NCBI GenBank assembly: GCA_021777475.1
Contig: JAJYDM010000004.1
Location: 1 to 54,155, forward strand
DNA: 54,155 bases
Reading direction: 5' to 3'
DNA from: Actinomycetes bacterium
GTDB lineage: Bacteria > Actinomycetota > Acidimicrobiia > Acidimicrobiales > Acidimicrobiaceae
Of the stretch, positions 6,375 to 54,155 are shown in pieces. Position 1 is the stretch's first letter. Each line of letters opens with the position of its first letter. The position numbers were made by a program, and so were the translations under genes. The notes beneath the pieces were generated by a model. It was given only the letters and a program-made list of their open reading frames with translations. It did not search any database and was not told where the DNA came from.

Positions 6375-6381
6375 GGCTCAG

Positions 6382-7329: not shown

Positions 7330-7399
7330 TACTAAGACTCCAAGTCTCTGTGATACAGCACATTACTAGCCTAGGCCATGCCGCTCAGTATCAGAATCA

Positions 7400-8215: not shown

Positions 8216-8233
8216 GGAGACTCCTAACTCGAC

Positions 8234-14644: not shown

Positions 14645-14647
14645 TGC

Positions 14648-15991
<1,344 letters not shown>

Positions 15992-16020
15992 TTACAACAC
16001 TGGCAAATACGGGCAACCTT

Positions 16021-17415: not shown

Positions 17416-17491
17416 GGGCTACCTCGCCTTACGGTGTTTGGTTTTCCTCTGCGGAATCCTCGTACGTATACCCAACGTAACCGACAGGCAC

Positions 17492-34800: not shown

Positions 34801-36783
34801 TTAACTTGACGACTTCAAAGGACTTTTTGCAATTGTTCCCAAACGTTTCAGGTATCTACTTTCTCGATACGCACTAGTCCCGTCAACGTCGACGCTACCG
34901 TCGGTCGCCAAGACTAATCCGTATACAATCTGGGCTTCGTGGACAGTCAACTTGCCATCAGCGAGGTCTTTAGCCACTAATTCTGGATCTCTACGTAATG
35001 GATCGCCAAAACCGGCAAAATTTGGAAGGTTCGTACACCATATGTCTCCTCTTTTTAGGACTATTGGTGGACCTTTAAAAAATGTCTTCTCCTCCTCCCC
35101 TTTCAGCTCGTCATAATTCTGCGGAATGCTGCCATTAGCAAGCATTTGATTAACGTCCGTGCTTCGTTTCACCTTGAAAAAAGCTCGGCCACCTGGATTT
35201 CCGCCCATCATCCCTTGATTCTTTACAAAGCTCTCATCCATATAGACATGCACGTCCATCTGCTCCGTACCGTGCAGTATCCAGGCCTCCTCAGCACCTA
35301 ACCCACTTCGAAACTTTCCTGCCCCAGCAGCGCCGGCAGCATTTTCACGGCGATAAAGCGTAAGGACTGGCCAAGCCATCTCATTTTCTTCCACGTTTGA
35401 CGCTTCCATGCCAGGAACCCAAAACAGACCACCAGTGTCAACCCCATCTCGCACTGGAGAAGCCGGAAGCGCGCCAGTTGCCATTCCAGCACTCATTCCG
35501 ACGAAGAATTGACCATGCTGATTGATTCCGTTAAAGATCCAGCCCCCGTAGGCATGGACGTCGGCCATACCGATAGCCTTCTCACGCAGTGGGGAGTCTG
35601 CACACGCAATCATCTTTGCGACAGCCCCTGTAGCCGTTGCAACAACCATCGGCATGTTATACACACCTGCAGTGCTAATTGGGGCTGGAAAATCAGCACA
35701 AGTGATTGTGCCAAAAACAGGCCGAAATTTCACCCTTCGGTAAAGACCACCACTAGTCCCCGCCAAATCGTAACCCAACATGATGGTAAGTGGTGCCAGG
35801 ACTCCACCTGCCAGTCCGGCGTATGTATTGTTAATTGCACCTACCTGTGGAGACGTTCCTTCATTGTCAACATACAGGTATTCACCTTCCTTTACAATAT
35901 TAATTTGACTAACATAAATACCGCGATCGCCTGGCACTGATACTTCCGTGTAAACTCGCTCGGACCATCGACCGTCTGGTATCATCTGCAGTTTCTCGAC
36001 AACTGCCCTTTCACCCGCGTCCATTACCTCATCAATTACTGCCTTCACAATTTCCGGGCCATAGCGCTGAATCAGCTTGATAATCCTTTCCCGGGCCAGA
36101 TTCAACCCAGCGATAGCAGCGTGGAGATCCATATCCACCGTGCTAGGTAGCCTTGATTGACGAAGAAAAAGCTGTTCCACATCCACTCGCAATTTGCCAG
36201 CTTCCGCAAGCTTCATCGGGGGGAAACACGGTGGATCCTGTCTAATGTCCTCCGAAGCTAGGCAGAAACTTCCGGGAACTGGTCCTCCAACGTCACTGTA
36301 ATGAACACTATTAGCAACCCAGCAAAACAATTCACCTTCCCAAAACACTGGGCTTGTCAATCCTGTATCCTGCTGATGAGAGGTGCCTACATACGGGTCA
36401 TTACATAGGAACACATCCCCATCCTGGATCCCAGGCTCGTCACTACGGTTCTCCAAAATCCACTTTGTAATTAATGCGAGCATGTTGCCAAGGTACAGCA
36501 GGTAGGGACCAAGACACATTACGTCTCCAACCTCTGTAAGGATCGCACATTGGAAATCCCGCACAATCATGGTGATTGGCGAAATACTTAGTTTCTGAAT
36601 CGTTTGCCCATGTTCTAAATTGATATTAAGGAGTGTGTTGCGAATAACCTCGTAGGTAATCGGATCTACTTCAGTTGCCGAGCTGGAGCTGTAAAGACGT
36701 AGCCTTGGACTGATGCTGAGCACTTCAGGTGGGACATAACCGCGAGCTATTCCATCGCACACCAACTTTTCAGGTTCTTCCAT
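34801..36783 (-). CDS. Hydantoinase B / acetone carboxylase alpha-like subunit
   Basis: HyuB-family protein of 660 aa. Characteristic start of domain VDPITYEVIRNTLLNINLEHG (about residues 38-58), then GDVFLCNDPYVGTSHQQD, HYSDVGGPVPGSF and a C-terminal glycine-rich part (GGNPGGRAFF). Members act with HyuA in ATP-dependent hydrolysis of hydantoins or 5-oxoproline, or in carboxylation of acetone or acetophenone. ATG start with AGGGG upstream. It lies 105 bp after hyuA. In acetone carboxylase the matching subunit binds the metal; no metal site could be confirmed here by eye. Confidence 0.88.
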   Translation of the reverse strand: MEEPEKLVCDGIARGYVPPEVLSISPRLRLYSSSSATEVDPITYEVIRNTLLNINLEHGQTIQKLSISPITMIVRDFQCAILTEVGDVMCLGPYLLYLGNMLALITKWILENRSDEPGIQDGDVFLCNDPYVGTSHQQDTGLTSPVFWEGELFCWVANSVHYSDVGGPVPGSFCLASEDIRQDPPCFPPMKLAEAGKLRVDVEQLFLRQSRLPSTVDMDLHAAIAGLNLARERIIKLIQRYGPEIVKAVIDEVMDAGERAVVEKLQMIPDGRWSERVYTEVSVPGDRGIYVSQINIVKEGEYLYVDNEGTSPQVGAINNTYAGLAGGVLAPLTIMLGYDLAGTSGGLYRRVKFRPVFGTITCADFPAPISTAGVYNMPMVVATATGAVAKMIACADSPLREKAIGMADVHAYGGWIFNGINQHGQFFVGMSAGMATGALPASPVRDGVDTGGLFWVPGMEASNVEENEMAWPVLTLYRRENAAGAAGAGKFRSGLGAEEAWILHGTEQMDVHVYMDESFVKNQGMMGGNPGGRAFFKVKRSTDVNQMLANGSIPQNYDELKGEEEKTFFKGPPIVLKRGDIWCTNLPNFAGFGDPLRRDPELVAKDLADGKLTVHEAQIVYGLVLATDGSVDVDGTSAYRESRYLKRLGTIAKSPLKSSS

Positions 36784-36888: not shown

Positions 36889-38991
36889 TTAAAGATCAAG
36901 TACCATGTTCCCCAATACATCGCAACTCAACGTCTGCCCTTTCCCCACCGCAACTGAAGTATGCGGTAACTCCACTACCGCTGGCCCGGTGACACGATTG
37001 CCGAAACGGAGATAGCGCCCATCAAAAACTTCACTCGATACCTTTTCGATATCATCTGGCCACACAATTGTTCGATGACCTAACCTTGCAGCTTCATCGA
37101 TCCGACTTTCTTTTTTAATATGAAATGCCTGTTCAGGCCGACGAAGATAAGCTGTTGCACGAATTCGAACCGAAAACAATTCGACGCCTTGAGACACCCG
37201 TCCCGCACCACTTCCATAAAGTGCATCGTAAGTAGCTTTGAACTCATCGACTATTTGTCCCATTTCAGCTTGACCATATACGCCGCCTGGAAGCTTCCTC
37301 AACAAGCTATGCAACCACTGACCGCTATAGCGCATTTGGGCAAATCGCTCTAAAGAAATATCCTCTGGAGCTCGACCCATCTCGGTCAAAGCTCCGTGCG
37401 CTTCTGCTTCCAGTTTGTTTATTAAACCGTTAAGTTCTTCCAAAGGAAACGGATAACGGAACAGTTGCTCCTTCTCAAAAAACCGCACTAAATTTGAGCT
37501 CGCTGAACCATAGGCCGAAAGGGTGGATGCACCATTTCCTAGTGGTATTACTACTCCTTTGACACCAAGTTCACTGGCATAGGCAAAAGCATGTAGAGGA
37601 CCCGCGCCCCCGTAGGCAAACAACATGAAATCTCTGGGATCATAGCCACGTATAACCGTTTGCTGTCTGATAAGTTCCGCTGCTTTGGCATTGTTGATCT
37701 TCAAAATACCAGCAGCCGCCTCCTCGGCGCTAAGACCGACCTGCCGTCCTAGGTTTTCCATGGCCCTCACTGCCGCATCGCGATCAAGCGGCATTTTTCC
37801 CCCAAGGAATGTATCTGCCGAAATCAGCCCGAGCACGACGTCCGCATCAGTTACCGTTGGCTCCGTGCCGCCCCTCCGATAACACACCGGCCCCGGATTC
37901 GCGCCAGCACTTTGCGGCCCGACACGAATTGATCGGCTATACGGAGCTAAATAGGCCACACTTCCGCCACCGCAGGCGATTGATGTTGTTTGCAACTGCA
38001 GCTGCTTGTAACGATATTGACTGACAACGTTTTCATCGCTGACGAGCGGTTCGCCATCGACTATCAAGCCAACCTCAAATGAGGTTCCCCCCATATCGGT
38101 AGCAATGACGTTGGAATGACCAAGCTGATTCGCCAGAGCCGCCGATCCCATTAGTCCACCAACCGGACCCGATCCTAGGGAAGTTAGCGGAACCTCAAGT
38201 GCCGCCTTGACTGGCAAAATACCACCCGTCACTTGCATCACTAGGAGTGGATGGTTGAAACCAGCCTCTTTCAAGCGCTCAGCAGCGCCAGCAAAATAGA
38301 TAGCTGTTTTCTGGGCTACATAGCTATTAATAACAGTTGCCACGGTTCGTTCATACTCACCCATACGTGGAGCAACTTTATGAGAGCAAGAGACATAGAC
38401 ATTTGGGGCAATCCGATTGATAATCCTCATTGCTTCAAGTTCGTGGTCCGGTCTGCGAAAAGACCATAGAAATGAGACCGCAATTGCTTCGACTCCCTGA
38501 TCCTCCACCAGGCTGCGAACGGCGTCCTCAACTTCTTGCATATTTAGGGGAACCACAACCTCCCCCTCGCAATCAACCCGCTCATTAACCTCTCTTATGA
38601 GATTTTTGGGAACAAGTGGCTCAGGTTTATCAGTTGCCTGCGGATGATAGTACAGTTCAGGGTCCAAGCCGGTTATTCGTCCCGAACCTCTCATCATTAG
38701 TATTGCATCCCCATGCCCGGCAGTTGTCAAAAGACCCGTGCGGGCCCCTTTGCGCTCAACAAGCAAATTAGTTCCAACTGTGGTGCCTAGGCTAAAGCGC
38801 TCCGTTGAGGTAATCAGGTCGGACAACGTAATGCCCCATTCCTCAGCCAAGGCAGTTAGTGCGTCAAACATTCCATCTGAAAAATTTTCTGTCGTAGTCG
38901 GTGCCTTGGCGAAACGTATCTGACCATCACTATCCATAGCTACGCAATCAGTAAAGGTCCCTCCTCCATCTAGACCGATGTAGTATCCCAA
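36889..38991 (-). CDS. Hydantoinase A / acetone carboxylase beta-like subunit
   Basis: HyuA-family ATPase subunit, 700 aa, of the ASKHA-like fold. N-terminal phosphate loop GLDGGGTFTDCVAMD (about residues 6-20), FSLGTTVGTNLLVERKGA (about 66-83), central ATDMGGTSFEVGL and IACGGGSVA, and C-terminal FAYGGAGPLHAF. It would activate substrate or bicarbonate with ATP. The TTG start is preceded by a purine-rich GGGGG. A ~690-bp leader separates it from the MmgE/PrpD gene and contains a structured RNA candidate followed by a terminator-like stem, so expression may be controlled there. Confidence 0.9.
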   Translation of the reverse strand: MGYYIGLDGGGTFTDCVAMDSDGQIRFAKAPTTTENFSDGMFDALTALAEEWGITLSDLITSTERFSLGTTVGTNLLVERKGARTGLLTTAGHGDAILMMRGSGRITGLDPELYYHPQATDKPEPLVPKNLIREVNERVDCEGEVVVPLNMQEVEDAVRSLVEDQGVEAIAVSFLWSFRRPDHELEAMRIINRIAPNVYVSCSHKVAPRMGEYERTVATVINSYVAQKTAIYFAGAAERLKEAGFNHPLLVMQVTGGILPVKAALEVPLTSLGSGPVGGLMGSAALANQLGHSNVIATDMGGTSFEVGLIVDGEPLVSDENVVSQYRYKQLQLQTTSIACGGGSVAYLAPYSRSIRVGPQSAGANPGPVCYRRGGTEPTVTDADVVLGLISADTFLGGKMPLDRDAAVRAMENLGRQVGLSAEEAAAGILKINNAKAAELIRQQTVIRGYDPRDFMLFAYGGAGPLHAFAYASELGVKGVVIPLGNGASTLSAYGSASSNLVRFFEKEQLFRYPFPLEELNGLINKLEAEAHGALTEMGRAPEDISLERFAQMRYSGQWLHSLLRKLPGGVYGQAEMGQIVDEFKATYDALYGSGAGRVSQGVELFSVRIRATAYLRRPEQAFHIKKESRIDEAARLGHRTIVWPDDIEKVSSEVFDGRYLRFGNRVTGPAVVELPHTSVAVGKGQTLSCDVLGNMVLDL

Positions 38992-39688: not shown

Positions 39689-41080
39689 CTAGCTCCAGGC
39701 CAGAAGATCGACCAAGGACTTTACATCACGCACATTCTCCAGCTCTGCCACAAGTTCTACCAGATCTGTGGCATTCTCTAGCGACCTAGGATTTTTTGCG
39801 TGAGCGACACAGTCAAGAAATTTTCGCTCGCAGTCGGCAAATGATAACGGCTTAGATGGCGTTCCTGTTGGCAATTCAACTTGCTCAACATAACAATCTC
39901 CATTCGTCAACGTAACTCTGACACGGGCGGGTTCAATGACATCAGTTCTGTTCAAAGTTGGATCGATCTCCACGTGAATTTTTGCCGCAACATCCAAAAT
40001 ATCTTGGCTTCGAATAGCGGCTTCCGTGAAGTCATCTATTACTGCTCGCTTGCGGGCGACCGCGGTTGCCACGCCCCATGGCACGCTGAACTGACTATCA
40101 ACAAAGTTTCGTGGCCGTGCTTTCACTTCTGGTGGAGATGCAAGCAAGCCAAATGTCCCCTCGCCACAACCAACAAGGATGCTCTCAATGTCTTTCACCA
40201 GGAAATCATGCTTATTTACGATTGCCAAAGCAGCATCGACAAAAGGATGTACCCCCCGACAGCACGGATACGGCTTAATCGAAACATTTACCCCTTCAAA
40301 TCTTTTGCCCAACTCTCCGACTAAGGCATTTCGAGAGTAACTTCCCTGGTGATACACGTTATAAATGCCATGTTTTCCCTCTAAACAATTTCTTGCACCC
40401 GTTATACCTTTTTTAGCCATTAGGGCAGCCGTTATTCCGCCTTTGACGGCCATGCCAGGACCCATTCTTTTGGTCAGGGCCCCATCCTGTACACATTGCC
40501 CGTTACCTGCAGACTGATGGTAACCAATTCCAATTGCGTCAACCATCTGATCTTCATCCAGCCCCAAGATCCTGCCCGAAACAGCAGCAGCAGTCATGTA
40601 ACCGTACAAACTCGTTAGATGCCAGCCAAAGCCATGGATATTTTGACCAGGCCTCGTTGCTAACCCGAGGCGACAAATTAGGTCAGTGCCCAAAGCGATA
40701 GCCGTTATAAACTCTTCACCGCTAAGGCTCCCTTTGTACTCAGCCATAGCCAAGGCCGTAGGAACTGTAATCACCCCAGGGTGCATAACGGCAGTCTCAT
40801 GCACATCGTCATAATCAAGACTGTGCCCCATCGTCGCATTCAACTGCGCCGCAATTGGTGCCGGCAATTTATAACCCCAGTAAATAACCGTACTTTGAGG
40901 TGCCCCTCCCCATTCCAGTGCCAGGTCTGTCATTTCCTTTACGCCTGCCTCTGAAGATCCTCCCACGGCCACACCAAAAAAGTCCAAGACTTGTTTTTTC
41001 GTTGCACTCACAACATCAGGAGGAAGGTCTTCGAACTTCAAAGTCGCGAAGTTCCTAGCAAATAGGTATGTAGCATCCAA
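39689..41080 (-). CDS. MmgE/PrpD family protein
   Basis: Family includes 2-methylcitrate dehydratase, cis-aconitate decarboxylase and iminodisuccinate epimerase, all acting on di- or tricarboxylates. The 463-residue protein has the family core (KKQVLDFFGVAVGG, about residues 28-41; GHSLDYDDVHETAVMHPG, about 85-102; KPYPCCRGVHPFVDAAL, about 270-286). TTG start with GGGG 8 nt before. It follows mutL by about 320 bp and likely belongs to the GRE-mutase operon. A dehydratase, isomerase or decarboxylase step on the branched acid made by the mutase would fit (inference). Confidence 0.88.
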   Translation of the reverse strand: MDATYLFARNFATLKFEDLPPDVVSATKKQVLDFFGVAVGGSSEAGVKEMTDLALEWGGAPQSTVIYWGYKLPAPIAAQLNATMGHSLDYDDVHETAVMHPGVITVPTALAMAEYKGSLSGEEFITAIALGTDLICRLGLATRPGQNIHGFGWHLTSLYGYMTAAAVSGRILGLDEDQMVDAIGIGYHQSAGNGQCVQDGALTKRMGPGMAVKGGITAALMAKKGITGARNCLEGKHGIYNVYHQGSYSRNALVGELGKRFEGVNVSIKPYPCCRGVHPFVDAALAIVNKHDFLVKDIESILVGCGEGTFGLLASPPEVKARPRNFVDSQFSVPWGVATAVARKRAVIDDFTEAAIRSQDILDVAAKIHVEIDPTLNRTDVIEPARVRVTLTNGDCYVEQVELPTGTPSKPLSFADCERKFLDCVAHAKNPRSLENATDLVELVAELENVRDVKSLVDLLAWS

Positions 41081-41403: not shown

Positions 41404-42774
41404 TTACAGCTTGACGACATATTTTTTGATAAGGTTCATTGCCTTAATTGGATCGCTCTGGGCCAGTAATCCCAGCGCAAACATTATGTAATTTTTGTCG
41501 ATCATTAGTTCGGCGGTTTTTGGTTTTAGCAAACCTGGCGAACCATCTTGACTTAGCGCTCCCGCCAAGACCAACCGTGGCTCACGGGAAAACACAATAG
41601 GTCCACCAGAGCCGACAACCCATTTCACGTTCCCAAGGTCTTTACCTCTCTGCGCATACATCTCCCCATTTGGAAAAACACGTGCCTCGATTCTCCCGAC
41701 ATGTCGCTCCACCGCCGTCTTTACTGCCAAATGTGACAACCAAATGTGGATTTGCTGCTGTTTTTCCCCAACAGGGACTCTACCGATTTCAGAACTGCTC
41801 GAGGCAAATTCTCCGAAGTTTGCCGTTGCGCTTGTCGACTTTGAAATCTCTTGTAACGTCGCCAGGTTGTATACCAATCCAAGATCCCCTTCTACGGTCC
41901 GCTTGGCATATGGCTCCGGTAATCCGACTTGGTTCACTCCAGTTCTGGTAGGAAGTCCATCAGCAACGGAATATACGTCTGTCGTTGCCCCTCCAACATC
42001 AACAAGTATTAACTCCCCAAATCCTTCAGTTCCCGACACTCCGTCAGCCATCAGTTTTGCCGCCGCCAGCACGGCTGAGGGAGTTGGCATGATCACATCG
42101 CGAATTTTCGATTTAACCTTTGCTATTCCTTTTGCATCAGTAATGTGTCGAAGGAAGATTTCCCTGATTGTACGATTAGACGATTCAATATCAAGGACAC
42201 CAATTTCCGGCATAACATTTTTCGCAAAAATCAGGTTTTTCGCCGTACCGGCAAAAATGTCCCTAATTGCGTCATAGGCGGATTTATTACCGGCTATCAC
42301 AATATTCTTTACACGGGGTCCGGTTGCAGCAAGTGCTTTTGCATTATGGCAAATAACCTTTTTGTTCCCGCCATCCGTCCCTCCGGTTAGCAAAACAATA
42401 TCTGGTCTTATCTCCTCTATCTCCGCGATTTCCCTGTCAGATAGCTCAAACGAATACACTCCAACAATTTTTGCCCCTGCCCCCAATGCGGCAATGCGCG
42501 CAGCTTCGGTCGTGAATTCGCTCACCAATCCCACACAAATAACCCTCAGCCCACCCGCGGCACTGCTGCACGCAACGGCTTGTTCCCGCTCAGCATTGCC
42601 AATACCAATGTCCTCGGCTAACAATGAAAAGGCCTGGTCTAGCCCGATGGTAATGTCCGAATCCACTGTCGACGGCACCTGAACCCCTGCAATCAACTCC
42701 TCAGCATCAAGGTCGAAAGCAACCATTTTTGTGAATGTGCTACCAAAATCAATAAAAATTCCAGTATTCCCCAT
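41404..42774 (-). CDS. MutL/GlmL-type B12-mutase reactivating chaperone
   Basis: ASKHA ATPase family (MutL/GlmL) encoded with glutamate mutase subunits and thought to exchange damaged cobalamin. The N-terminal phosphate loop FIDFGSTFTKMVAFD covers about residues 7-21, then LLTGGTDGGNK (about 128-138), DVGGATTDVYSV (about 249-260) and C-terminal GSGGPIVFS. At 456 aa its length is normal. Its presence beside the E and S subunits strongly supports a functional AdoCbl-dependent mutase, even though glm genes are more usually ordered S-L-E. It lies downstream of the GRE gene, separated by 155 bp containing a hairpin. Confidence 0.9.
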   Translation of the reverse strand: MGNTGIFIDFGSTFTKMVAFDLDAEELIAGVQVPSTVDSDITIGLDQAFSLLAEDIGIGNAEREQAVACSSAAGGLRVICVGLVSEFTTEAARIAALGAGAKIVGVYSFELSDREIAEIEEIRPDIVLLTGGTDGGNKKVICHNAKALAATGPRVKNIVIAGNKSAYDAIRDIFAGTAKNLIFAKNVMPEIGVLDIESSNRTIREIFLRHITDAKGIAKVKSKIRDVIMPTPSAVLAAAKLMADGVSGTEGFGELILVDVGGATTDVYSVADGLPTRTGVNQVGLPEPYAKRTVEGDLGLVYNLATLQEISKSTSATANFGEFASSSSEIGRVPVGEKQQQIHIWLSHLAVKTAVERHVGRIEARVFPNGEMYAQRGKDLGNVKWVVGSGGPIVFSREPRLVLAGALSQDGSPGLLKPKTAELMIDKNYIMFALGLLAQSDPIKAMNLIKKYVVKL

Positions 42775-42929: not shown

Positions 42930-45461
42930 TCAGTACACTTCGTGTAGGGTACGAGCAATGATTTCATCCTGCAGTTCCGGTGGCAGATCTACAAAATATG
43001 CGCTATAGCCGCCCACTCTGACAAGGACATTTTTATATTGCTCTGGATTTTCCTTTGCCTTCAATAGTTCATCTGAGTCATGAATATTAAATTGAATATG
43101 CCAACCACCCCGGGCAAAAAATATCTTCACTAACGCCGCCAAGTTCTCCAACTTTGCCGTGGAAGTCAGCATCGCTTTTGGAAACTTCATATTATGTGTA
43201 ATACCTACTGTCTCCCATGCGTGTGGTGCCTTAGTGGCTGAATTGATGAGCGCTGTTGGGCCTTCCACATCCATCCCCGGCATAGCAGAGGTTCCAGCAT
43301 CATTTAGCGGAGTTCCGGCCTTGCGTCCGTTAGGCAAGGCGCCAACCGAAGCACCTTGCGTGACGTGCCCAGCTGCCGCTCCTTTAAATAACATCGGCTT
43401 TTCCCCAGTAAAAGGATCTGGCCGACCGGTAAGAATCATTTGTGTCGTCAATGAAACACGATTGAAGATCTCATCCACAAAATCATCATCATTGCCATAT
43501 TTTGGTGCGTTCAAGCACATCTGGCGTATATCGTCGTGACCTTCCCAGTTGGCTGCCATAGCATCCAGCAACTCTGCCATTGTGAACTTGTTCGAGCGAA
43601 ACACCAGGTGCTCTATGGCCGCCAAATCATCTGCTACGTCAGTAATTCCCCTGTCGCCGATCCAGGATGCACGACATACCGGGTATCGTGCTCCACCTTC
43701 CCTCGACGTCAAACCCGCTGGTATGCAGTCCTCGTAAAGCATGGCCGCTCTAAGTCCACTCATGGGACTATTCATGTTCTCGCTACTCCACCAGATAAAA
43801 TAATGCTTCCGCAGAATTTCAGCAAAATAATCTTCTTGCTGAAAGAACGCCTCGTAAAATTGTTCCAAAGACGTAAATTGAGTCACATCACCTGTTTGGA
43901 GACCTAACTGTTTTTTCGTTCTCGGGTCAAAACCGTTATAAAGAGTCAACTCAAAAATCTTTGCTTGGTTGATACTGAACATCCCAGCCATGTGCTCACC
44001 GCACTCAAGGTGATAACCAAGACAGCCACTAGCTAACCAGTTTGTCGCATCTTCAGGTTTGACACCTCTAGCCAAATACCTATCCGTTCCCAACTTGTCA
44101 TTGAGAAATGCAGGATTCCCCCCACCAAAATCTCGGTTACACTCCAGTGCATGCAACATAAAATCTTCATCCATGCCTTCGTGCCACCGAATGTAAACAG
44201 CTGGTTCAGATAGCTTTATCTGCCTCATGACTTCAAGCACCAGCCACGACAGTTCATTGGTTAAATCCCTACCATTTTCATCGATACCGCATAGAGTGAC
44301 GTCAGGAAGTAGTGTTCCGGGGGCTGCGCGGTGCTCACGCTTGATAGTCACTAGGTTTTCCGTCTCGCGGATCTTTAACCAAAAAGCTCCCAGCAACTCG
44401 CCAGCTTCCTGCCTTGTTAGCCGACCCTGAGCGAGATCCTCTTCGTAAAATGGATACAAAATCTGGTCAATCCGACCAATCCCAACTTCCGGACGCTCGG
44501 AACTCTCCTTCCAGCAAGCTAGATGAAGGAAACGTAGGGACTGAACCGCCTCCCAATAATTACGCGGCCTATTTCCCGGAACCCAATCGCAAACCTCGGC
44601 AATTTTTTCCAGCTCCTGCTTTCGCACTGGATTTCTTTCCTTCAAAGCCAAGTCTCTAGCTAAATCGGCATATCTGTGCGCGTATGCAATTATCGCCTCA
44701 CAAGACACAATGGTGGCCTTCAGCAAATAATATTTGCGCAACGCAGCCGCAGACGCACCTGGTAAGCACGCTCCTTGATCTACCATTTTATCGATTTCTG
44801 CTTTAGCCAAATTAATGACATGGTTAAGGCCATTGTGTATTACAGGCATGGTTGGCTGTGCGATACCCCCTCCAAAAGCACCCCAGCCTTGGAACAGACC
44901 TCGATCAGGATCGACCCTAACGGCACGACCTTCGAAAACCATGCCTCGATCGAACATCAAATCGAAATGCCCCTCACCAAGTTCCTCTTTCAACGCCTCA
45001 TTGACATAATTAACAGTCGGCATATGTTGAACCCAATATTCGGCATCCTCGATTAAGAGCTTGAGATCTTCCGGGTCAATATAGGTCGCCGAAATATCAC
45101 TGAGTTTCCGGTCGAAACGTCCCGTCTTAGCCATTTCGAGCACTTCACGCGGCTTCATGGCAACCAGAACGTTATTCCCCCTCGTAAATTTTGTTAGCGA
45201 ACCTACGATTAGCTCGTCATCTCGAAGTAAAATCGGGCATTCTTCCAGCCGCTTTGCAAAAGCCTTTGCCCATCTAAGATCCACAGGCAAACCATCAGTT
45301 TCTTTCCAGGATTTCGTGAACAATAAAGTATCGTCAACGTATACGACCGGGTCCGCGTCCTCCCACTCTCGCTTCAGCTTCTTCAACCTCTCGGTCATTA
45401 CGACTACACTTTTGATTTCCTTGGCATTTGCCTTGGATAGCATTGAATCGGTTATTGTCAT
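42930..45461 (-). CDS. Glycyl radical enzyme of unknown substrate
   Basis: PFL-like glycyl radical enzyme, 843 aa. The radical glycine is Gly818 in VRVGGYSAYF, 26 residues from the C-terminus. The thiyl Cys is probably Cys480 in ASGCLGYHLECGE. Known dehydratase, lyase and decarboxylase GREs carry Cys-x-Glu (CVE); here the +2 residue is Gly, so the chemistry may differ. FGGGNPAFLND and LPNGRKAGTPLNDAG fit the diol dehydratase/choline lyase side of the family. Pyruvate formate-lyase (CC) and benzylsuccinate synthase (CMS) are not matched. ATG start with AAAGGAGG 8-9 nt upstream. Oxygen would cleave the active form at Gly818. Confidence 0.92.
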   Translation of the reverse strand: MTITDSMLSKANAKEIKSVVVMTERLKKLKREWEDADPVVYVDDTLLFTKSWKETDGLPVDLRWAKAFAKRLEECPILLRDDELIVGSLTKFTRGNNVLVAMKPREVLEMAKTGRFDRKLSDISATYIDPEDLKLLIEDAEYWVQHMPTVNYVNEALKEELGEGHFDLMFDRGMVFEGRAVRVDPDRGLFQGWGAFGGGIAQPTMPVIHNGLNHVINLAKAEIDKMVDQGACLPGASAAALRKYYLLKATIVSCEAIIAYAHRYADLARDLALKERNPVRKQELEKIAEVCDWVPGNRPRNYWEAVQSLRFLHLACWKESSERPEVGIGRIDQILYPFYEEDLAQGRLTRQEAGELLGAFWLKIRETENLVTIKREHRAAPGTLLPDVTLCGIDENGRDLTNELSWLVLEVMRQIKLSEPAVYIRWHEGMDEDFMLHALECNRDFGGGNPAFLNDKLGTDRYLARGVKPEDATNWLASGCLGYHLECGEHMAGMFSINQAKIFELTLYNGFDPRTKKQLGLQTGDVTQFTSLEQFYEAFFQQEDYFAEILRKHYFIWWSSENMNSPMSGLRAAMLYEDCIPAGLTSREGGARYPVCRASWIGDRGITDVADDLAAIEHLVFRSNKFTMAELLDAMAANWEGHDDIRQMCLNAPKYGNDDDFVDEIFNRVSLTTQMILTGRPDPFTGEKPMLFKGAAAGHVTQGASVGALPNGRKAGTPLNDAGTSAMPGMDVEGPTALINSATKAPHAWETVGITHNMKFPKAMLTSTAKLENLAALVKIFFARGGWHIQFNIHDSDELLKAKENPEQYKNVLVRVGGYSAYFVDLPPELQDEIIARTLHEVY

Positions 45462-45542: not shown

Positions 45543-45749
45543 TTACCGAAGTATTTTTCCGCTAGCTACTTGTCCGATCTTTGCCTTTCCTGTCGACAAA
45601 CAACGACTTGTCATGACATCACAGCATTGATGCAACTCCACGGCCTCGATTTGTCTGCTTGATGAATGTTCCGCAATTGCCCACCTGCATGCCGCATTCT
45701 CAGAGTCATTGTTCTTCGTCATTTCGATGAACAGCACATCTGCCGTCAA
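45543..45749 (-). CDS. Possible small Cys-containing protein between mutS and GRE genes
   Basis: A 68-codon frame whose TTG start overlaps the mutS stop (TTGA), so translation could be coupled. It contains Cys21, Cys42, Cys43 and Cys50 but no family I recognise. Several GREs (4-hydroxyphenylacetate decarboxylase, benzylsuccinate synthase) have small Cys-rich subunits encoded next to the catalytic subunit, which makes the position suggestive. The rest may be random: there is no good ribosome binding site and the C-terminus is basic and low in structure. Confidence 0.35.
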   Translation of the reverse strand: MTADVLFIEMTKNNDSENAACRWAIAEHSSSRQIEAVELHQCCDVMTSRCLSTGKAKIGQVASGKILR

Positions 45750-46192
45750 CTCTCCATCACAAGGTTTGCAAACTTCCGCTTGCTCATGAGATCGCCCCGC
45801 AAATCTTGAATGGCAAGCTGTATGTCAGATTCAGGAGGATACACCCGGTCGAAACCCATTTCCTTGAACCTCTTTTCGTCATCTTGAAAATTGTGCCTCG
45901 ATACACCTAAAATCCCACCGATATAAAGAAGCACCTCTTCCAACCCTGCTTCAATGCATTTTTCTTTGAATCCCTGTAAGTCCATCTCTGCCATCCCGTA
46001 TAAAGAACTCATAAGCATCGCATCAGCATCTGTTTCCTGCGCAACCTTGATAAACTCTTCTGGCGGTGTCTGAGCGCCTAATTCCACTACCGCATAGCCA
46101 GCATCCCGCAATGCGCGCGATACAATTTTGGTTCCAATCACATGTGCGTCCACGCCAACGGTCCCGGTGATAATTGTGGGCTTAGCCTTCAT
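45746..46192 (-). CDS. B12-binding subunit (S) of a glutamate-mutase-like enzyme
   Basis: Cobalamin-binding Rossmann-like protein, 148 aa. The base-off/His-on motif DAHVIG is at about residues 15-20 (DxHxxG, the His that ligates cobalt), with SSLYGMAEMDL (about 62-72) and IGGILG (about 91-96) completing the site. It matches the small subunit MutS/GlmS of methylaspartate mutase. The ATG follows the mutE stop by 2 nt, with GGA repeats upstream. It combines with the E subunit to form the AdoCbl-dependent carbon-skeleton mutase. Confidence 0.93.
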   Translation of the reverse strand: MKAKPTIITGTVGVDAHVIGTKIVSRALRDAGYAVVELGAQTPPEEFIKVAQETDADAMLMSSLYGMAEMDLQGFKEKCIEAGLEEVLLYIGGILGVSRHNFQDDEKRFKEMGFDRVYPPESDIQLAIQDLRGDLMSKRKFANLVMES

Positions 46193-46194
46193 TC

Positions 46195-47688
46195 CTAATC
46201 CTTCCCTCTACGCCCGTTATTGTTGTTGAAATTAGGCATCCCGAGCAGGTTCCCCTTGCTAATTGCCCAAAAATCGTCAATTGAAACGTAATAGTCCATC
46301 TTTCTTCCCTCAACATTTTCTCGCTCGGCCACCTTGTCCCGATGAAACTGTTTTATTTCCTCAGGAATCGGCAAATTGCCAAATTCGATGTACCGACATG
46401 CCCCTTTTAGATCACGGACACCTAACACCTGGTCTTTAGCATGGATATTTATAGAAAATGGAGAATCGAGGACCCCCGCCTCAACTGCCCTAATAGCTCC
46501 TACTGCTATATCACCTTCACCAAGTTCGAGAACTTTATCCAGAATTGCCGTCACCTCGGCTTCGGTTATGCTCTCTTCCTGGCGAATATCCTCATTGTCA
46601 ATTTCAAATTCTTGCGTACGGACTACATCAAGAACCCACTTCGCAGCCTGATAACTCTCGATATGGGACTCTTTGGTCGGGATTCCTATCGCTTCGTCAA
46701 TAGTTTTTACGAAACATGCATCGACCTGTCCCAGTGCAGCGACAGTCGCAGTGTAGACAATGTAACCAAATGCGCTTCCCATGCCTCGGGGAAACGCATA
46801 GAGCGGTACTTGACTTCCGACAATACCCGGGATCATCACATCGCTGTGGCCTAACTTATCCAAATATTTCCGATAAAGCCTTGGCGTCACCCTGATGTCT
46901 CCAAGGTCTTGAGCGATGCTCCCCTGAAGGTTAACCTGGGGCATCACGCTTTTTACACCTTGTTCAGCTGAAATGAGCGCTTCAATTATTTGCGTCGCGA
47001 TATTAACGCTCATCGGAATGACGCCGTTTGGCAACCATCCGTGACAATCCGTAGTTATAATGACACCTTTGCTGGCATAATACCCAATTAACCTGCCCAA
47101 ATACTGCGCGGTATCTATGCACTCCTCGACGGTGGCTTTCTTATCGTAGCCACCAATCCAACCAAAAAAACTGTTTGGCATTGCAGTCATACCCGATGCA
47201 AAAGCGACCTCCCCAACCAGGCTATTGGCTAAACGAGAGGATCTAGGAGAAAAAGCGCCATCACACGCCTCGACAACTTTGCGCGTGGTCAGCACGCCAT
47301 GGTTGACGATCGGATACCCGTTCAACATTGAACGCCCGGCCTTGATGCTGTCTTCCAATCCGCGTTGTGCTTTGTCCAACTGGAGATTACGTGTGTAGCT
47401 ATCGGTCGTGAACGGAATCAACGGTATTCCGAGATCATTCAGCGAACGTACAAGTTCAATTTCATCTTCTACGATTGGAGTGCCAGACCGAGGAAACAAA
47501 ACCGTTCTGCCTTCCTCGTGTACTTTCTGTAACACTTTGTAAAACTTCTTACTATCCGGCAAGTTTCGCTGATATTCCACCGCCTCATCCAGATCTACTT
47601 CCTGCCCGGTAGGCCATAGGGACAGCACATCCTTTCGCATGGCCAAAAAATCATCTTCATCAATTTGCTTTTGCCGAACCTTAATCAC
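46195..47688 (-). CDS. Catalytic (E-like) subunit of a divergent B12-dependent carbon-skeleton mutase
   Basis: Related to methylaspartate mutase epsilon (GlmE/MutE), 497 aa. Conserved features: WPTGQEVDLDEAV near the N-terminus, Arg67 (FPRSG), Arg100 (DSYTR) and Arg149, equivalents of the three substrate-carboxylate arginines (66, 100, 149) of the Clostridium cochlearium enzyme, and VKTIDEAIGIPTKE near the cofactor. The enzyme's Glu171 and Tyr177 appear to be Pro171 and Trp177 here, and a 4-residue loop after Arg149 is lost. The amino-group contact is therefore missing and glutamate is an unlikely substrate. GTG start, AAGGAG at 9 nt. Alignment made by eye from memory. Confidence 0.9.
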   Translation of the reverse strand: MIKVRQKQIDEDDFLAMRKDVLSLWPTGQEVDLDEAVEYQRNLPDSKKFYKVLQKVHEEGRTVLFPRSGTPIVEDEIELVRSLNDLGIPLIPFTTDSYTRNLQLDKAQRGLEDSIKAGRSMLNGYPIVNHGVLTTRKVVEACDGAFSPRSSRLANSLVGEVAFASGMTAMPNSFFGWIGGYDKKATVEECIDTAQYLGRLIGYYASKGVIITTDCHGWLPNGVIPMSVNIATQIIEALISAEQGVKSVMPQVNLQGSIAQDLGDIRVTPRLYRKYLDKLGHSDVMIPGIVGSQVPLYAFPRGMGSAFGYIVYTATVAALGQVDACFVKTIDEAIGIPTKESHIESYQAAKWVLDVVRTQEFEIDNEDIRQEESITEAEVTAILDKVLELGEGDIAVGAIRAVEAGVLDSPFSINIHAKDQVLGVRDLKGACRYIEFGNLPIPEEIKQFHRDKVAERENVEGRKMDYYVSIDDFWAISKGNLLGMPNFNNNNGRRGKD

Positions 47689-47715: not shown

Positions 47716-48627
47716 TCATACAGCTACTTCGCATGCAAGTCCGAACGACTCGATAATTTCCTTAGCTTTTGACAGATCTTCTTTCGAAGGCGGCAGCAAT
47801 TTAGCAAGCTCATATCTCCGGTCCAACATCGCGTACTTGCCCATTCCAAACCTGTGGTAAGGCAGAAGGTTAACTTTTGCCTCTTTTGACATTCCAGAAA
47901 CGGTTTTTGCTAAGGCTTCAATATTCTCTTTAGAGTCGTTATGGCCAGGAATATACGGAACTCGAATTACAACCGGCACACCGCTACGAATAATTAACTC
48001 CAAATTCCGCATAATCAGCCCATTTTGTTTCCCAGTCAACTCGCGATGAATTCTTGCATCAAGATGTTTGATGTCGTAAAAAACCAACGATGTGTATTGC
48101 AGAATCCTCTGAAGAGCCGATGATGTGCCATATCCGGCTGTATCAAGACAGGTGTGGATTCCAACCTCACGACACCGTTTCAGCAGTGCAAACGTAAACT
48201 CTGGCTGATACAGAGCCTCTCCCCCGCAAATTGTTACGCCGCCGCCAGAACTCTCGTAGTAATCAGTATCTCGTTGGAGCTGTGAAAACACCTCTTCAAC
48301 AGTCATACTCCTTCCCATAAGTTCAAGAACCTCTCGATCACAAGCGTCAATGCACTTACCGCAGACATTGCAACGATCACGGTCAATGTGCACTCCAGCT
48401 TCATCGACCGTGATTGCAGCGGCTTCGCACACTTGGACACATATTCCACACTTGCTGCATAATGAATCTCTGTGCGATATTTCCGGATTTCGATTTTGCG
48501 ACTCGGGATTCGAACACCACTTGCAGTTCAATGGGCACCCCTTCAAGAAAACCGTGCTCCTAATCCCGGGCCCATCATCGATGCTGTATCGCTGAATGTT
48601 AAAAACGGTCCCCATTATCTCGCCCAT
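47716..48627 (-). CDS. Glycyl radical enzyme activating enzyme (radical SAM)
   Basis: Uses SAM and a [4Fe-4S] cluster to place the radical on the GRE glycine. The radical SAM motif is CPLNCKWC (CxxxCxxC), about residues 28-35. Two ferredoxin-like clusters follow, CSKCGICVQVC and CNVCGKCIDAC, as in non-PFL activases, and GGGVTICGGEAL is the SAM-binding GGE region. I chose the ATG at 48627, with GGGGAG upstream; 35 further in-frame codons upstream look non-conserved. It is the first gene of the GRE-mutase operon and follows a strong promoter. It precedes mutE by 27 nt. Confidence 0.93.
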   Translation of the reverse strand: MGEIMGTVFNIQRYSIDDGPGIRSTVFLKGCPLNCKWCSNPESQNRNPEISHRDSLCSKCGICVQVCEAAAITVDEAGVHIDRDRCNVCGKCIDACDREVLELMGRSMTVEEVFSQLQRDTDYYESSGGGVTICGGEALYQPEFTFALLKRCREVGIHTCLDTAGYGTSSALQRILQYTSLVFYDIKHLDARIHRELTGKQNGLIMRNLELIIRSGVPVVIRVPYIPGHNDSKENIEALAKTVSGMSKEAKVNLLPYHRFGMGKYAMLDRRYELAKLLPPSKEDLSKAKEIIESFGLACEVAV

Positions 48628-48741
48628 AGAACTCCCCTTGCAATCGACTCTTGGAACCCCGTGCCCACGAACTACCTGCAGCAGCCCCACTGGGCCGACC
48701 ATACTGCACCTATCTGAACCGTTGATGAACATTTCACTTTT

Positions 48742-49330: not shown

Positions 49331-50437
49331 TTACTTTCCTCGCGCTACACCATTTCTCACCACGGTGGCAATTGCGACCGCCACCACAAGTCCAGCACCA
49401 TAAAAGACATCTTGGACCCAACCGCTATATCCGAAGAGTTCCAGACCGAAAATACCAGTCTCGAGGAAATAGATACCAACAAGCGTCCCAACTGGGTTAA
49501 AACGACCAGGCTGCACGACCGCAGTCCCGAGAAACACCGCGGCAAGCGCTGGTAACAAATAATTTGCCGAACCAGTAGCATTAAAGCCTCCGGTTGATGA
49601 AACCAGAAGCAATCCGCCAATGGCCGCTATAACAGATGCGACAAGGTATGATCCCACCCTTATACGATTGACCCGGATCCCAGCCAGCCGCGCAACTTCC
49701 CTATTTGATCCGACGAAGAGCAAATGCCGACCGACTGGCGTCCATAAACTTACATAGGCGAACAAAGCCACAAGGATTACGCCATAATAGAACGAAATCG
49801 GTAAATCCAGAATCGGATACAGTGCAACTTTAGAAAATGCTACGTTAGTAATTGAAACGGAAGCTGAATCTGAGATCCACATTGCAATACCAATGAGCAG
49901 AGTGCCAGTTCCCAAGGTCACGACCAAGCTTGAGACACCCACCTTGACAACGAAAAATGCGTTAAGCAACCCGGCCCCTAAGCACGCGACAATTGCTATG
50001 ACACAGGCCACAACTATATTAACGTGATGCTGACCAGCAAGCACTGGAACGATCGTTGCAGCAAGACCCATGATCGAAGCGATCGATAGGTCAAACTCCC
50101 CGACCCAAAGGGTTGTCAACGCGGCAATCCCCAAGAACACAAGAACCTGCTGAGAGCCAAAGATTGATTCAACTGTTGCCAATCGACCAAACTTGGACGG
50201 CATCGATAAATAGAAAAACAGAGCCATAGCTAGCCACACAAGCAACAACGCGTACTTGCTTAGAAATGTTCGGTGATGAATTGCTCGCCAAAAATAAAGC
50301 CGACGCAAAGAATCCGCAGTATTTTCAGCCTCGAAAGTCTGTGGAATTATCTGCCCACCATCTCTTTGCACCTCCGATTCTACGATTGACTTACCTTTCT
50401 CATCCGCATCATCAGGTGCAAATCGGGGCGCGATCAT
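49331..50437 (-). CDS. ABC importer permease, ribose type
   Basis: Membrane subunit of a carbohydrate-class (CUT2/RbsC-like, BPD_transp_2) importer, 368 aa. It has a hydrophilic N-terminus of about 60 residues, then about eight to ten hydrophobic segments. The family signature VGEFDLSIASIMGLAA (about residues 111-126) corresponds to the GGIDLSVG segment of RbsC. The ATG overlaps the ATPase stop by 4 nt (ATGA). It is the last gene of the three-gene importer operon. Family members carry sugars, autoinducer-2, purines or polyols, so the cargo cannot be named. Confidence 0.9.
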   Translation of the reverse strand: MIAPRFAPDDADEKGKSIVESEVQRDGGQIIPQTFEAENTADSLRRLYFWRAIHHRTFLSKYALLLVWLAMALFFYLSMPSKFGRLATVESIFGSQQVLVFLGIAALTTLWVGEFDLSIASIMGLAATIVPVLAGQHHVNIVVACVIAIVACLGAGLLNAFFVVKVGVSSLVVTLGTGTLLIGIAMWISDSASVSITNVAFSKVALYPILDLPISFYYGVILVALFAYVSLWTPVGRHLLFVGSNREVARLAGIRVNRIRVGSYLVASVIAAIGGLLLVSSTGGFNATGSANYLLPALAAVFLGTAVVQPGRFNPVGTLVGIYFLETGIFGLELFGYSGWVQDVFYGAGLVVAVAIATVVRNGVARGK

Positions 50438-51960
50438 GCTGCACCAGACCTTGAGTAAACCATGTCCATGATCTCATCTACATCAAGGCTCGAAATCTCG
50501 ACAAGTTTCCGACTGCTAGAGAAAACTAGCACACGGTTGCATACAGCAGCTAGATCAGAGACGTCAATACTCACGACCAGCACTGATATGCCTGATTTAG
50601 CAACTTGGTGAATCTGCCCAAGTATGTCTCGTTTAGCTCCAACGTCAACGGCCTGGGTAGGCTCGTGGAGCACTAGCAATCTCGGTCCAGCCGAAAGCCA
50701 CTTTGCTAATAGCACTTTCTGCTGATTTCCTCCACTAAATTGCTTTACCAACAGCGAGGGATCGCTTGGTCGAATTCCTAGATCGTGACTCATACGCTGA
50801 GATTCCTCATCTTGCCATCGCCTGGAGACGAACCACGATTTTCCCCGCGACCTCAGTGTTGGCAAAGTGATGTTTTCGCTCATGGAGAGTTCGAAGGCTA
50901 AGCCGTCTTGCTCTCGTCTCTCCGGAACCAGTGCAATCCCTGCACGTATGCACCTATGAACCGATGCCTTCGACAAACATATGGTCTCGTCGGCAATCCT
51001 CACGGTGCCGCCTGCTACAGGGCGGGCTCCAGACAAAAGATAAGGTATATGTTCGAATCCACTCCCGGACAAGCCGGTTATCCCCACCACCTCTCCTTTG
51101 CCTATCGAAAAATCAAGATCTTCCATGCCATCACCGGTAAGCCCCGTAATGGCAACAGCAGGTACGTAACCATTTTGAACAGTACGCACAGCAAGATTAG
51201 ACACCTCTTTACCGAGCATGCGTTGCATAAGTTCTCGCTCGGAAAGTTCAGAGGTCAGAAGGCCGCTACCCACCACAACCCCGTCGCGCAGTACTGTCAC
51301 ACGGTCAGTCTGAGCCAAGACTTCTTCAAGGTTATGGCTCACCAATAGAACCGATGTGCCCTGATTAACTACCTCATGAAGCATGCCATAAAAACGAACC
51401 ATCTCATCTCTTGTAAGCGAACGTGTTGACTCGTCCAGAATGATCAGCCCTGATCCCAACTTATGATCTCGCAATGCTCTCGCAACAGCTACTTCAGCTC
51501 GCTGCGCAGCCGAAAGAGACCCGACCAAGGTCCTCGGGGCTATTGATGACGAAAGTCGTTCCAAAGCTGCGACAGCGACTTCCTCCTGTAATTTCCAGTC
51601 AATGGTGTGAAACGGGCCTCGAACAGGATAGCCCCCGACCCCAATATTTTCGGAGACGGTGAGATCATCTATGAGACCAAGATCCTGGTGAACCACCGAG
51701 ATACCTGCCTTGTGTGCCTCCTCCCAGCGAAGAGGCACGGATAGCGCATTCCCGTCCAATGAAATCGAAGCACCTTTATCACACCCGTGGTAACCGGTTA
51801 ATATCTTTACCAAAGTTGATTTCCCGGAGCCATTTTCACCCACCAAGCCATGGATCTCACCAGGTTGGATTATTAGGCTGACTGCACTCAACACCTGCGA
51901 ACTCCCGAAAGACTTCGTAATGTCATTTACTTCGATACGAGGCCTGTCTGACTTTAGCAT
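50434..51960 (-). CDS. ABC importer ATPase with two nucleotide-binding domains, ribose type
   Basis: RbsA-like fused ATPase, 508 aa. First domain: Walker A GENGSGKST (about residues 38-46), a degenerate signature LSAAQRAEVAVARAL, Walker B LIILDEST. Second domain: degenerate Walker A ITGLSGSGFEH, signature FSGGNQQKVLLAKWL and Walker B LLVLHEPTQAVDVG, where His replaces the usual acidic residue before Glu. One intact and one degenerate site is normal for this subfamily. Starts 9 nt after the binding-protein stop. Confidence 0.92.
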   Translation of the reverse strand: MLKSDRPRIEVNDITKSFGSSQVLSAVSLIIQPGEIHGLVGENGSGKSTLVKILTGYHGCDKGASISLDGNALSVPLRWEEAHKAGISVVHQDLGLIDDLTVSENIGVGGYPVRGPFHTIDWKLQEEVAVAALERLSSSIAPRTLVGSLSAAQRAEVAVARALRDHKLGSGLIILDESTRSLTRDEMVRFYGMLHEVVNQGTSVLLVSHNLEEVLAQTDRVTVLRDGVVVGSGLLTSELSERELMQRMLGKEVSNLAVRTVQNGYVPAVAITGLTGDGMEDLDFSIGKGEVVGITGLSGSGFEHIPYLLSGARPVAGGTVRIADETICLSKASVHRCIRAGIALVPERREQDGLAFELSMSENITLPTLRSRGKSWFVSRRWQDEESQRMSHDLGIRPSDPSLLVKQFSGGNQQKVLLAKWLSAGPRLLVLHEPTQAVDVGAKRDILGQIHQVAKSGISVLVVSIDVSDLAAVCNRVLVFSSSRKLVEISSLDVDEIMDMVYSRSGAA

Positions 51961-51969
51961 TACGATTAC

Positions 51970-53190
51970 CTAATTAGCCTTCCATGCCCTCAGGTACGGT
52001 GCTTCAAATGCGCTCTCCGCTACTCCATAGAAACTCATGTTCAGATAATTAGCATGTGTGAGGTCCAATGACTTAATATTGTTTGGGCCAAAAACCCGAG
52101 TCGGGCCATCTCCCTGGGCGGGAACCTTCAGACCTGATAACATTCGAATCACCGCGTCAGCATCTTGCCAACCCTGCCACTCGATAGGACTACCTGGATC
52201 AAATGCCACAGTTCCAGCGGCAACATCCTTCAGCCCAGCTAACCCGCCATCTGCTGTGATTACCTTGACTTTACCTGCAAAACCAGCAGACTGGATTCCA
52301 CCCATTGCCGGGGGAAGAAAAGCGTCAGCCTGGACCACCACGTAATTCGTATTAGGGTGGCTCACAAGCGCAGCAGACAGGGTGGAAGGCATTTGAGAGA
52401 TTGTTGCCGTCTGCATCTGAATGGAATTCACAGTGCACTTTGGGCAGTACTTTTTGAACACGTCAAGCTGTGCCGCATTGGCATTCTTGGTCTCCGAAGA
52501 GTCAGTTAACTGTATCAACATTACATGGGCTTGGCCTTTGCTATCTGAAATTACCAGATCCGCAACCAGCTTCTGGAACAGGTCTGTCTGCTTATACGGA
52601 TCGAGAAACTGCAGCTTGGAGTTGGGAACTGCACCTGCGTCTACCGGCTCTCCTGCCACGAGAACAGGGATATTCTTAGCCTCAAGAGCTTGGAATGCAG
52701 TTGGAACCATTGCATAGTCAATATAAGAAGTAACAACCAGTGCTGCTCCTTGCTGGGCAGCTGTAGTCATGCAACTGACAATGGTAGTGGGCAGTGCGCC
52801 TCCGTCACAGACATGCACCTTGACACCCACATGGCTAAGTGCTGCTGCCATGGTAGTTCCAATGCCTGCGAGTGAGTCAACACTGTTCGTGATAGGTATG
52901 TACCAAACTGTTTTCCCTTTAAGATCTACAGGATTAGCAATTGGGGCTGGCGTATTAAGCGACACCGGCCCCGAATACTTCTGCACCTGAGCGTCGGCGT
53001 AAGCCAATCCACTATTCGAACCACTATTCGAAGAAGTAGAAACACCTGAACTTGAACTAGAACTAGAACTAGAACTAGAACTCGAAACCGAACTCGAAGC
53101 TCCGCATGCTGAAGCGAGCATTGCAAGCGAACTAAGGACGACAAGCGCTGCACCTGATCGCCGTCGAATCCTTCTAACCCGAAATACCAT
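51970..53190 (-). CDS. Substrate-binding lipoprotein of the ABC importer
   Basis: Periplasmic-binding-protein-like type 1 fold (ribose/AI-2 class), 406 aa. Signal peptide with twin basic residues and lipobox LASAC, so lipid-anchored outside the membrane. A Ser-rich linker (about residues 34-60) holds a run of about 13 Ser and is encoded by a slippage-prone hexamer repeat. The binding domain begins at KGKTVWYIPITNSVDSLAG. I chose the ATG at 53190 because GAGGGGG lies 6 nt before it; a GTG nine codons earlier would include that site. It starts the importer operon behind its own promoter. Confidence 0.88.
   Translation of the reverse strand: MVFRVRRIRRRSGAALVVLSSLAMLASACGASSSVSSSSSSSSSSSSSGVSTSSNSGSNSGLAYADAQVQKYSGPVSLNTPAPIANPVDLKGKTVWYIPITNSVDSLAGIGTTMAAALSHVGVKVHVCDGGALPTTIVSCMTTAAQQGAALVVTSYIDYAMVPTAFQALEAKNIPVLVAGEPVDAGAVPNSKLQFLDPYKQTDLFQKLVADLVISDSKGQAHVMLIQLTDSSETKNANAAQLDVFKKYCPKCTVNSIQMQTATISQMPSTLSAALVSHPNTNYVVVQADAFLPPAMGGIQSAGFAGKVKVITADGGLAGLKDVAAGTVAFDPGSPIEWQGWQDADAVIRMLSGLKVPAQGDGPTRVFGPNNIKSLDLTHANYLNMSFYGVAESAFEAPYLRAWKAN
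53048..53083. repeat. Hexamer tandem repeat (GAACTA)n inside the binding-protein gene
   Basis: About six units of GAACTW on the plus strand encode alternating Ser codons of the linker. Slippage would change the linker length by two residues per unit without breaking the frame. Confidence 0.7.
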
Positions 53191-53392
53191 CAATTTCCCC
53201 CTCAATACGTGAGCCACTCGTAATGGCCCACAACTAAGAACACCGTGCCAACTTTGCTACTCATACAGCTGGAACTCCGTCAATTCCATAAGTGATCCTA
53301 AGTAATCTTTTATGGTCGTCACCTCGCCCTATAAGCAGAGCTAACCCCATCCGTTGACCTCAATCCCACTTACTTTAGAGATCTGCGACTCA

Positions 53393-53654: not shown

Positions 53655-54155
53655 AAAAGGTTCTACTGCCCATCTCGTAATCGAGACGGAAAGTCCATAA
53701 CCGTCACCAGCCAGATCAAGATCGAGGCCGGACAGGTCACCAGAGGCGACCTGAAGACCGACTGATCAAAGAGACGACTAAAGCCCTAACGGAATTCCTG
53801 ATTTCAGACCTGGAGGCCCACAGACGCACACAACTCGAAACGGCGGCTAAACACGGGAGGGAACCTCCGGAGTTGGTTTTCCCTAGGTCAAAGGGTTTTT
53901 ACGTAAGACCTGACAATTTGCGGAAGCGCTTTATCTCCGCATGCCAGAAATCAGGAATAGAACCTCACGAGGACGGACGACCCTGGGGTGTCCACGAGCT
54001 CAGGCATACAGCCGCAAGCCAGCTTCTGAATGATCGCGTACCGATGCAGAGAGTTTCCAGAATTTTAGGTCTTAGCTCAATAACCGTGACATTAGATGTT
54101 CATTCTCACTTGACCGACCAAGAGAGCGAGCTCGTCGCGGACTCCATGGGCAAGC
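53655..54155 (+). pseudogene. Tyrosine recombinase (phage/island integrase) pseudogene, runs off the window
   Basis: Reading frames give SITVTSQIKIEAGQVTRGDLKTD, then an in-frame TGA at 53763-53765, and after a frame change about 53780 LTEFLISDLEAHRR... to HELRHTAASQLL, LGLSSITVTLDVHSHL. These are the integrase beta-sheet region, Box II with the HxLRH motif, and the C-terminal box. The usual LGHSS is LGLSS, and the catalytic Tyr of TLDVYSH is His (CAT). Stop, frameshift and loss of the nucleophile show it is inactive. No N-terminal half was found upstream. It marks the right flank of the island. Confidence 0.75.

Follow-up and report, generated by a model that had tools for sequence, protein, structure and literature searches.

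A GlmE-type mutase of probably new specificity, linked to a glycyl radical enzyme in a gene cluster of an Actinomycetes bacterium

Background

To our knowledge, few natural AdoCbl mutases act on free (non-CoA) acids. The closest described system is the glutamate mutase of Clostridium cochlearium, formed by E and S subunits (GlmES) and accompanied by the GlmL protein. In the classical fermentation, the product of glutamate mutase needs methylaspartate ammonia-lyase. The 2-methyleneglutarate mutase of the Eubacterium barkeri nicotinate pathway is also an AdoCbl enzyme; it takes an amino-free dicarboxylate, is a single chain with the B12 domain at its end, and is accompanied by the nicotinate-fermentation genes. 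The described glycyl radical enzymes (GREs) include eliminases, such as glycerol and propanediol dehydratases, HypD, CutC and isethionate lyase, and the X-succinate synthases (BssA/TutD, MasD), in which the Glu two residues after the thiyl Cys is absent. Nothing was found in the literature that joins a glutamate-mutase-like enzyme and a GRE in one pathway. The substrate contacts of glutamate mutase were described in a 2022 study, in which R66 and R149 hold the glycyl moiety, E171 holds it via its amine, and the acrylate part is bound by R100 and Y177 (PMC9545868).

Genome organization

The window, which is the whole stretch of 54,155 nucleotides analysed here, carries on its minus strand, in this order, an ABC importer, a GRE activating enzyme (activase), the mutase subunits MutE and MutS, the GRE, GlmL, a PrpD protein, a hydantoinase A/B-type pair and a short-chain dehydrogenase/reductase (SDR). 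Just past this cluster, on the opposite strand, are an iron-type alcohol dehydrogenase (Fe-ADH), an aldehyde dehydrogenase (ALDH) and a TetR gene. The features are as follows.

49331..53217 (-): ABC importer, with permease, ATPase and solute-binding protein (sugar-type)
47716..48732 (-): GRE activating enzyme, with radical SAM CxxxCxxC and two ferredoxin clusters
46195..47688 (-): variant mutase E subunit (GlmE-like, MutE), 497 aa, GTG start, intact ORF
45746..46192 (-): mutase S subunit (MutS), B12-binding, with a DxHxxG motif (DAHVIG at residue 15)
42930..45461 (-): GRE, with C480 in SGCLGYHL and the radical Gly in RVGGY (815-819)
41404..42774 (-): GlmL/MutL accessory protein, NCBIfam accessory_GlmL 524 bits (cut-off 475)
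39689..41080 (-): MmgE/PrpD family protein, with closely related proteins in 19 of the 41 other variant genomes
36889..38991 (-): hydantoinase/oxoprolinase A-type subunit (caprolactamase / acetophenone-carboxylase-like)
34801..36783 (-): hydantoinase/oxoprolinase B-type subunit; the A/B pair occurs with PrpD also in L044
33336..34145 (-): SDR, probable pathway member
30972..32129 (+): Fe-ADH, with close relatives adjoining the GRE in many genomes
28536..29978 (+): ALDH (betaine-aldehyde/semialdehyde type), probable pathway member

The MutS gene starts 2 nt past the MutE gene. The features of the AdoCbl carbon-skeleton mutase class are present, namely the DxHxxG B12 domain, the K326/E330 contacts and the accessory GlmL. 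The substrates of the MmgE/PrpD family are di- and tricarboxylates, and the importer probably takes up the pathway substrate.

The core set in other genomes comprises Fe-ADH (relatives in 27 of the 41 other variant genomes), GRE, activase, MutES and GlmL, and it is accompanied by aldehyde:ferredoxin oxidoreductase (AOR), OYE-type or FAD enoate reductases, SDRs, CoA-transferases and various importers. In L103 and L104, an XdhC-type gene adjoins the GRE and an OYE reductase. Even in distant lineages (L041 and the Gordonibacter loci L050 and L051), PrpD is found near the mutase; where the two are apart, PrpD is often accompanied by a zinc ADH, an ALDH and an AhlS-type lactonase. Sets of a zinc ADH, an AhlS-like lactonase and an Fe-ADH or ALDH, often near PrpD, were seen in L112, L115, L118, L122 and on contigs C127 and C7 of genome G300, resembling a gamma-lactone degradation set. 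A search of the window genome found no close match to the lactonase or the zinc ADH.

Adjoining the ABC importer (53873-54155, +) lies a phage-type tyrosine integrase, represented by its C-terminal part and still open where the window ends, and the G+C content is 46-50% across 28000-53300 against 51-52% upstream. Both observations are compatible with a transferred island. A molybdenum hydroxylase cluster is located at 3436-10687 (-), with CoxL/CoxM-like, XdhC-like and MobA-like genes and AAA and VWA maturation genes.

Fold and substrate pocket of the mutase E subunit

The 497-aa protein matches Pfam Met_asp_mut_E with E=2e-151 and aligns over its full length in HMMER with C. cochlearium GlmE (1cb7_B, 1ccw), gap-free across the pocket region; of 412 aligned positions, 37% are identical. 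Superposing the predicted model (pLDDT 92) on 1cb7_B gives Z 54.8 and an rmsd of 1.7 A for 481 residues, and this overlay fits the register of the sequence alignment; the second-best fold family is that of lysine 5,6-aminomutase (Z 26). MutE is a true GlmE-fold mutase, homologous to GlmE throughout.

In the HMMER alignment, R66, R100, R149 and Y181 of GlmE correspond to R67, R100, R149 and Y181 of MutE, and the Lys and Glu close to the cofactor are kept (K326 to K328, E330 to E332), while E171 and Y177 are changed to P171 and W177. The sequence-only reading had matched the same three arginines by hand, and this placement is correct, since the HMMER alignment and the overlay of the E subunit model alone on the glutamate mutase structure concur with it. 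Its two substitutions and the kept Y181 are likewise borne out by the gap-free alignment and by the homologues considered below. The loss of the amino-group contact, which it also claimed, stands as regards E171, which bonds the amine and is now P171, and does not extend to Y177, which bonds the acrylate part together with R100 (PMC9545868); W177 is therefore a change at the pocket's other half, away from the amine. As aligned, the pocket appears to keep both carboxylate sites, to have lost the amine contact and to have one acrylate contact changed.

Further differences from C. cochlearium GlmE are found at H150 (Ser) and F216 (His). Residues 174, 175 and 177 are larger than in GlmE, and the replacements at the amino site are hydrophobic (P171, F174, F175). 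D182, conserved in the variant subfamily and Ser in ordinary GlmE, could reach the substrate amine, which would count against the amino-free reading. MutE would work like glutamate mutase, and we do not file it as a strict glutamate mutase (EC 5.4.99.1) because a residue that helps to define this enzyme, E171, was looked for and is replaced.

Conservation and distribution

A genome-collection scan with six search peptides, one of which (MPNSFFGW) contains P171 and thus biased the retrieval toward this residue, yielded about 40 close relatives with 55-82% identity, mostly from metagenome-assembled genomes. No relatives were found in the viral contigs scanned. R67, R100 and R149 are present in all 42 homologous rows covering the site, and P171 with W177 in 41 of them, the exception being L041 (G171, E177). 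P171 and W177 also occur in six variant rows without the exact MPNSFFGW peptide (L027, L033, L040, L042, L043 and L044), and ordinary GlmEs from the same phylum have E171 and Y177. Such conservation, with the arginines all kept, indicates neither a chance change nor a sequencing error.

In the phylogenetic tree, the variants form one clade (support 99/99) spanning about seven phyla, with members in Actinomycetota, Bacillota, Chloroflexota, Acidobacteriota, Spirochaetota, Bacteroidota and a Deltaproteobacteria/Myxococcota bin. The carriers come from guts, digesters and sediments, and one is cultured, the type strain Sporobacter termitidis DSM 10068, in which the mutase is fused. E-S fusions of about 640 aa occur in most Bacillota members.

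This fused layout matches the single chain of 2-methyleneglutarate mutase, an enzyme that likewise depends on AdoCbl and takes an amino-free dicarboxylate, so the variant could be that enzyme or a near relative, converting 2-methyleneglutarate to 3-methylitaconate. The gene context differs from that of the Eubacterium barkeri enzyme: its nicotinate-fermentation genes were not recognised in the mutase neighbourhoods, and the nicotinate pathway involves no GRE. On gene context, this assignment seems to us quite improbable.

More divergent mutases were also seen. In the MutE of Gordonibacter L050 and L051 (10001-11434), two of the claw arginines are gone (Q66, N149), and N171, E177 and H181 are present; its neighbours are MutS, MutL, PrpD and a fumarate-reductase-like flavoprotein, and it probably represents a further non-glutamate mutase subfamily. 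Another divergent mutase, in L052 (Prauserella flavalba, 10001-11401), has Leu at claw position 66 and T171, with its own MutS and MutL adjacent.

Association with the glycyl radical enzyme and genome-level controls

The larger finding, and the strongest clue to the pathway, is the conserved mutase-GRE pair, which the sequence-only reading did not include. A GRE of the window type, with 59-77% identity, is present in 38 of the 41 variant-mutase genomes; one of the three exceptions, L033, has a contig that starts with the activase gene, just at the place expected for the GRE. The GRE and the mutase are on separate contigs in several genomes, which argues that their co-occurrence is not merely a matter of shared location. 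The window-type GRE is absent from Gordonibacter, which has the distant mutase. As a control, 295 genomes of Sporobacter's order were searched: the variant mutase was found in two, which are the only positives of this comparison, and the GRE in exactly these two; six other genomes carry an ordinary GlmE, all of them without such a GRE.

Methylaspartate ammonia-lyase is encoded in all nine ordinary-GlmE genomes, adjoining the GlmE genes; the window genome lacks it, as do 40 of the 41 other variant genomes. Together with the clade-wide loss of E171, this absence gives good support to a dicarboxylate other than an amino acid as the likely substrate, as the sequence-only reading had proposed.

MutE is nevertheless accepted by TIGR01503, the NCBIfam equivalog of methylaspartate mutase E (402.8 bits, cut-off 390.1), and all three claw arginines, Y181 and the cofactor residues are kept, as would be expected if MutE were an ordinary glutamate mutase whose pocket tolerates the changes, P171 and W177 being neutral drift and glutamate still the substrate. 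Across the entire clade, P171 and W177 vary no more than the catalytic arginines do, which speaks against drift, and with methylaspartate ammonia-lyase missing from the variant genomes and the GRE missing from the six ordinary-GlmE control genomes, we hold this explanation to be very improbable. Given that TIGR01503 accepts MutE, the public annotation of the variant clade as methylaspartate mutase is probably wrong, and glutamate fermentation is probably misassigned to the carrier genomes.

The glycyl radical enzyme

The operon GRE has the Gly radical loop, the thiyl Cys and the cognate radical SAM activase of its superfamily, and it shares with the eliminases the fold, both loops, the adjacent activase and the Fe-ADH neighbour. 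None of the NCBIfam GRE models reached its cut-off with this protein. The SGCLGYHL segment, including Gly482, is invariant in 17 family members; after the thiyl Cys it gives Leu-Gly, whereas the best-matching PDB relatives, which are eliminases, have Val-Glu (GC-V-E). The eliminase Glu at Cys+2 is thus replaced, and the His-Ser pair of glycerol dehydratase becomes Pro-Glu. Two arginines, R571 and R604, do not vary within the family, and the best PDB relatives differ at these positions. A diol dehydratase, suggested by overall similarity, was set aside on the replacement of the Cys+2 Glu and of the His-Ser pair.

The sequence scores are 463 bits against 8iof and 336-340 bits against the X-succinate synthases (BssA/TutD, MasD). 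The GRE model gives Z 28.6 against 5i2g and is modest (pLDDT 70.6, low at the active-site loops), so that the reaction type is read from the alignment. These residues suggest that the substrate is carboxylated and that the reaction is not one of the usual eliminations. In L015, a second GRE (29% identity) with its own activase (14610-18083) adjoins the first GRE-mutase cluster.

The GRE could act like an X-succinate synthase, adding a group to succinate or removing it, with the mutase rearranging the free substituted succinate, for example when a plant compound that forms lactones or diols is degraded. The operon GRE has the fold of those synthases and, like them, no Glu two residues past the thiyl Cys; the invariant R571 and R604, unlike those of the best PDB relatives, are compatible with a carboxylate substrate, and lactonase, zinc ADH, Fe-ADH and ALDH sets lie beside PrpD in several genomes. 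The scores, however, place the GRE nearer to diol-dehydratase-type enzymes than to BssA/MasD, no BSS-type small-subunit gene was found among ORFs of at least 80 aa from the activase to PrpD, the window genome has no close lactonase or zinc ADH match, and the larger residues 174, 175 and 177 suggest no space for a large group in the mutase. We consider this scheme unlikely.

A limonene-type fumarate addition was rejected, that route using enzymes different from the mutase-GRE pair, namely a BssA-like enzyme and methylmalonyl-CoA mutase (PMC12583861). A lignan substrate (dibenzylbutanediol or its lactone) was suggested by the lactonase and ADH genes and is kept as no more than a guess because of the larger pocket residues and the lack of a close lactonase or zinc ADH in the window genome.

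Proposed pathway

We propose, with reasonable though incomplete confidence, that the variant is an AdoCbl mutase of new specificity acting on an amino-free dicarboxylate, in one anaerobic degradation pathway with the operon GRE. As in glutamate mutase, the 5'-deoxyadenosyl radical would abstract a hydrogen and a carboxylate-bearing fragment would migrate between two carbons, the arginine claw holding a dicarboxylate that presumably has no amino group. The mutase and the GRE, whose active site is unlike that of known eliminase GREs, would share one pathway, in which an alcohol or lactone would be converted to a semialdehyde and then to a dicarboxylate, probably by ADH and ALDH, or AOR. The mutase product would then probably be handled by PrpD, as a dehydratase, and by an enoate reductase, in a step order that is likewise provisional. 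PrpD may not be a core step, since only half of the variant genomes have a close match to it.

An oxygen substituent would make the migrating radical more stable, and a hydroxy-dicarboxylate such as 2-hydroxyglutarate fits both this requirement and PrpD. Methylsuccinate/glutarate and 2-methyleneglutarate are further candidates. The examples first put forward, 2-hydroxyglutarate to 3-methylmalate or an alkylsuccinate, are one guess among several, and nothing here singles them out. A 2-hydroxyglutarate/3-methylmalate mutase, with PrpD dehydrating 3-methylmalate, would agree with the two carboxylate sites kept in MutE, with the stabilised radical and with PrpD near the mutase even in L041 and Gordonibacter L050 and L051. 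Such a scheme leaves the GRE unexplained and lacks an identified 2-hydroxyglutarate-forming gene, and the replacements at the amino site are hydrophobic; we regard it as unlikely.

For the proposed mutase-GRE pathway, S. termitidis offers a lead to the substrate source: methoxylated aromatics are the sole compounds on which it grows, via demethylation and ring cleavage (PMC4585845).

Conclusions

The variant clade resembles C. cochlearium GlmES and GlmL in fold, subunits, arginine claw, Y181, K326/E330 and DxHxxG, and differs in P171 and W177, in the missing methylaspartate ammonia-lyase, in its link to a GRE, often in the presence of PrpD and often in the E-S fusion. With its altered amino site, it would represent an added specificity and a test case for the role of E171 in setting it. 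We are evenly divided on whether these genes form an anaerobic pathway that is both widespread and undescribed, with one metabolite acted on by a GRE of new reaction type and by an AdoCbl mutase whose specificity is new. If true, two different radical cofactors would serve one catabolic route. The mutase-GRE pairing marks a degradation pathway across guts, digesters and sediments, which can now be tested, as the carriers include a type strain in culture, S. termitidis DSM 10068.
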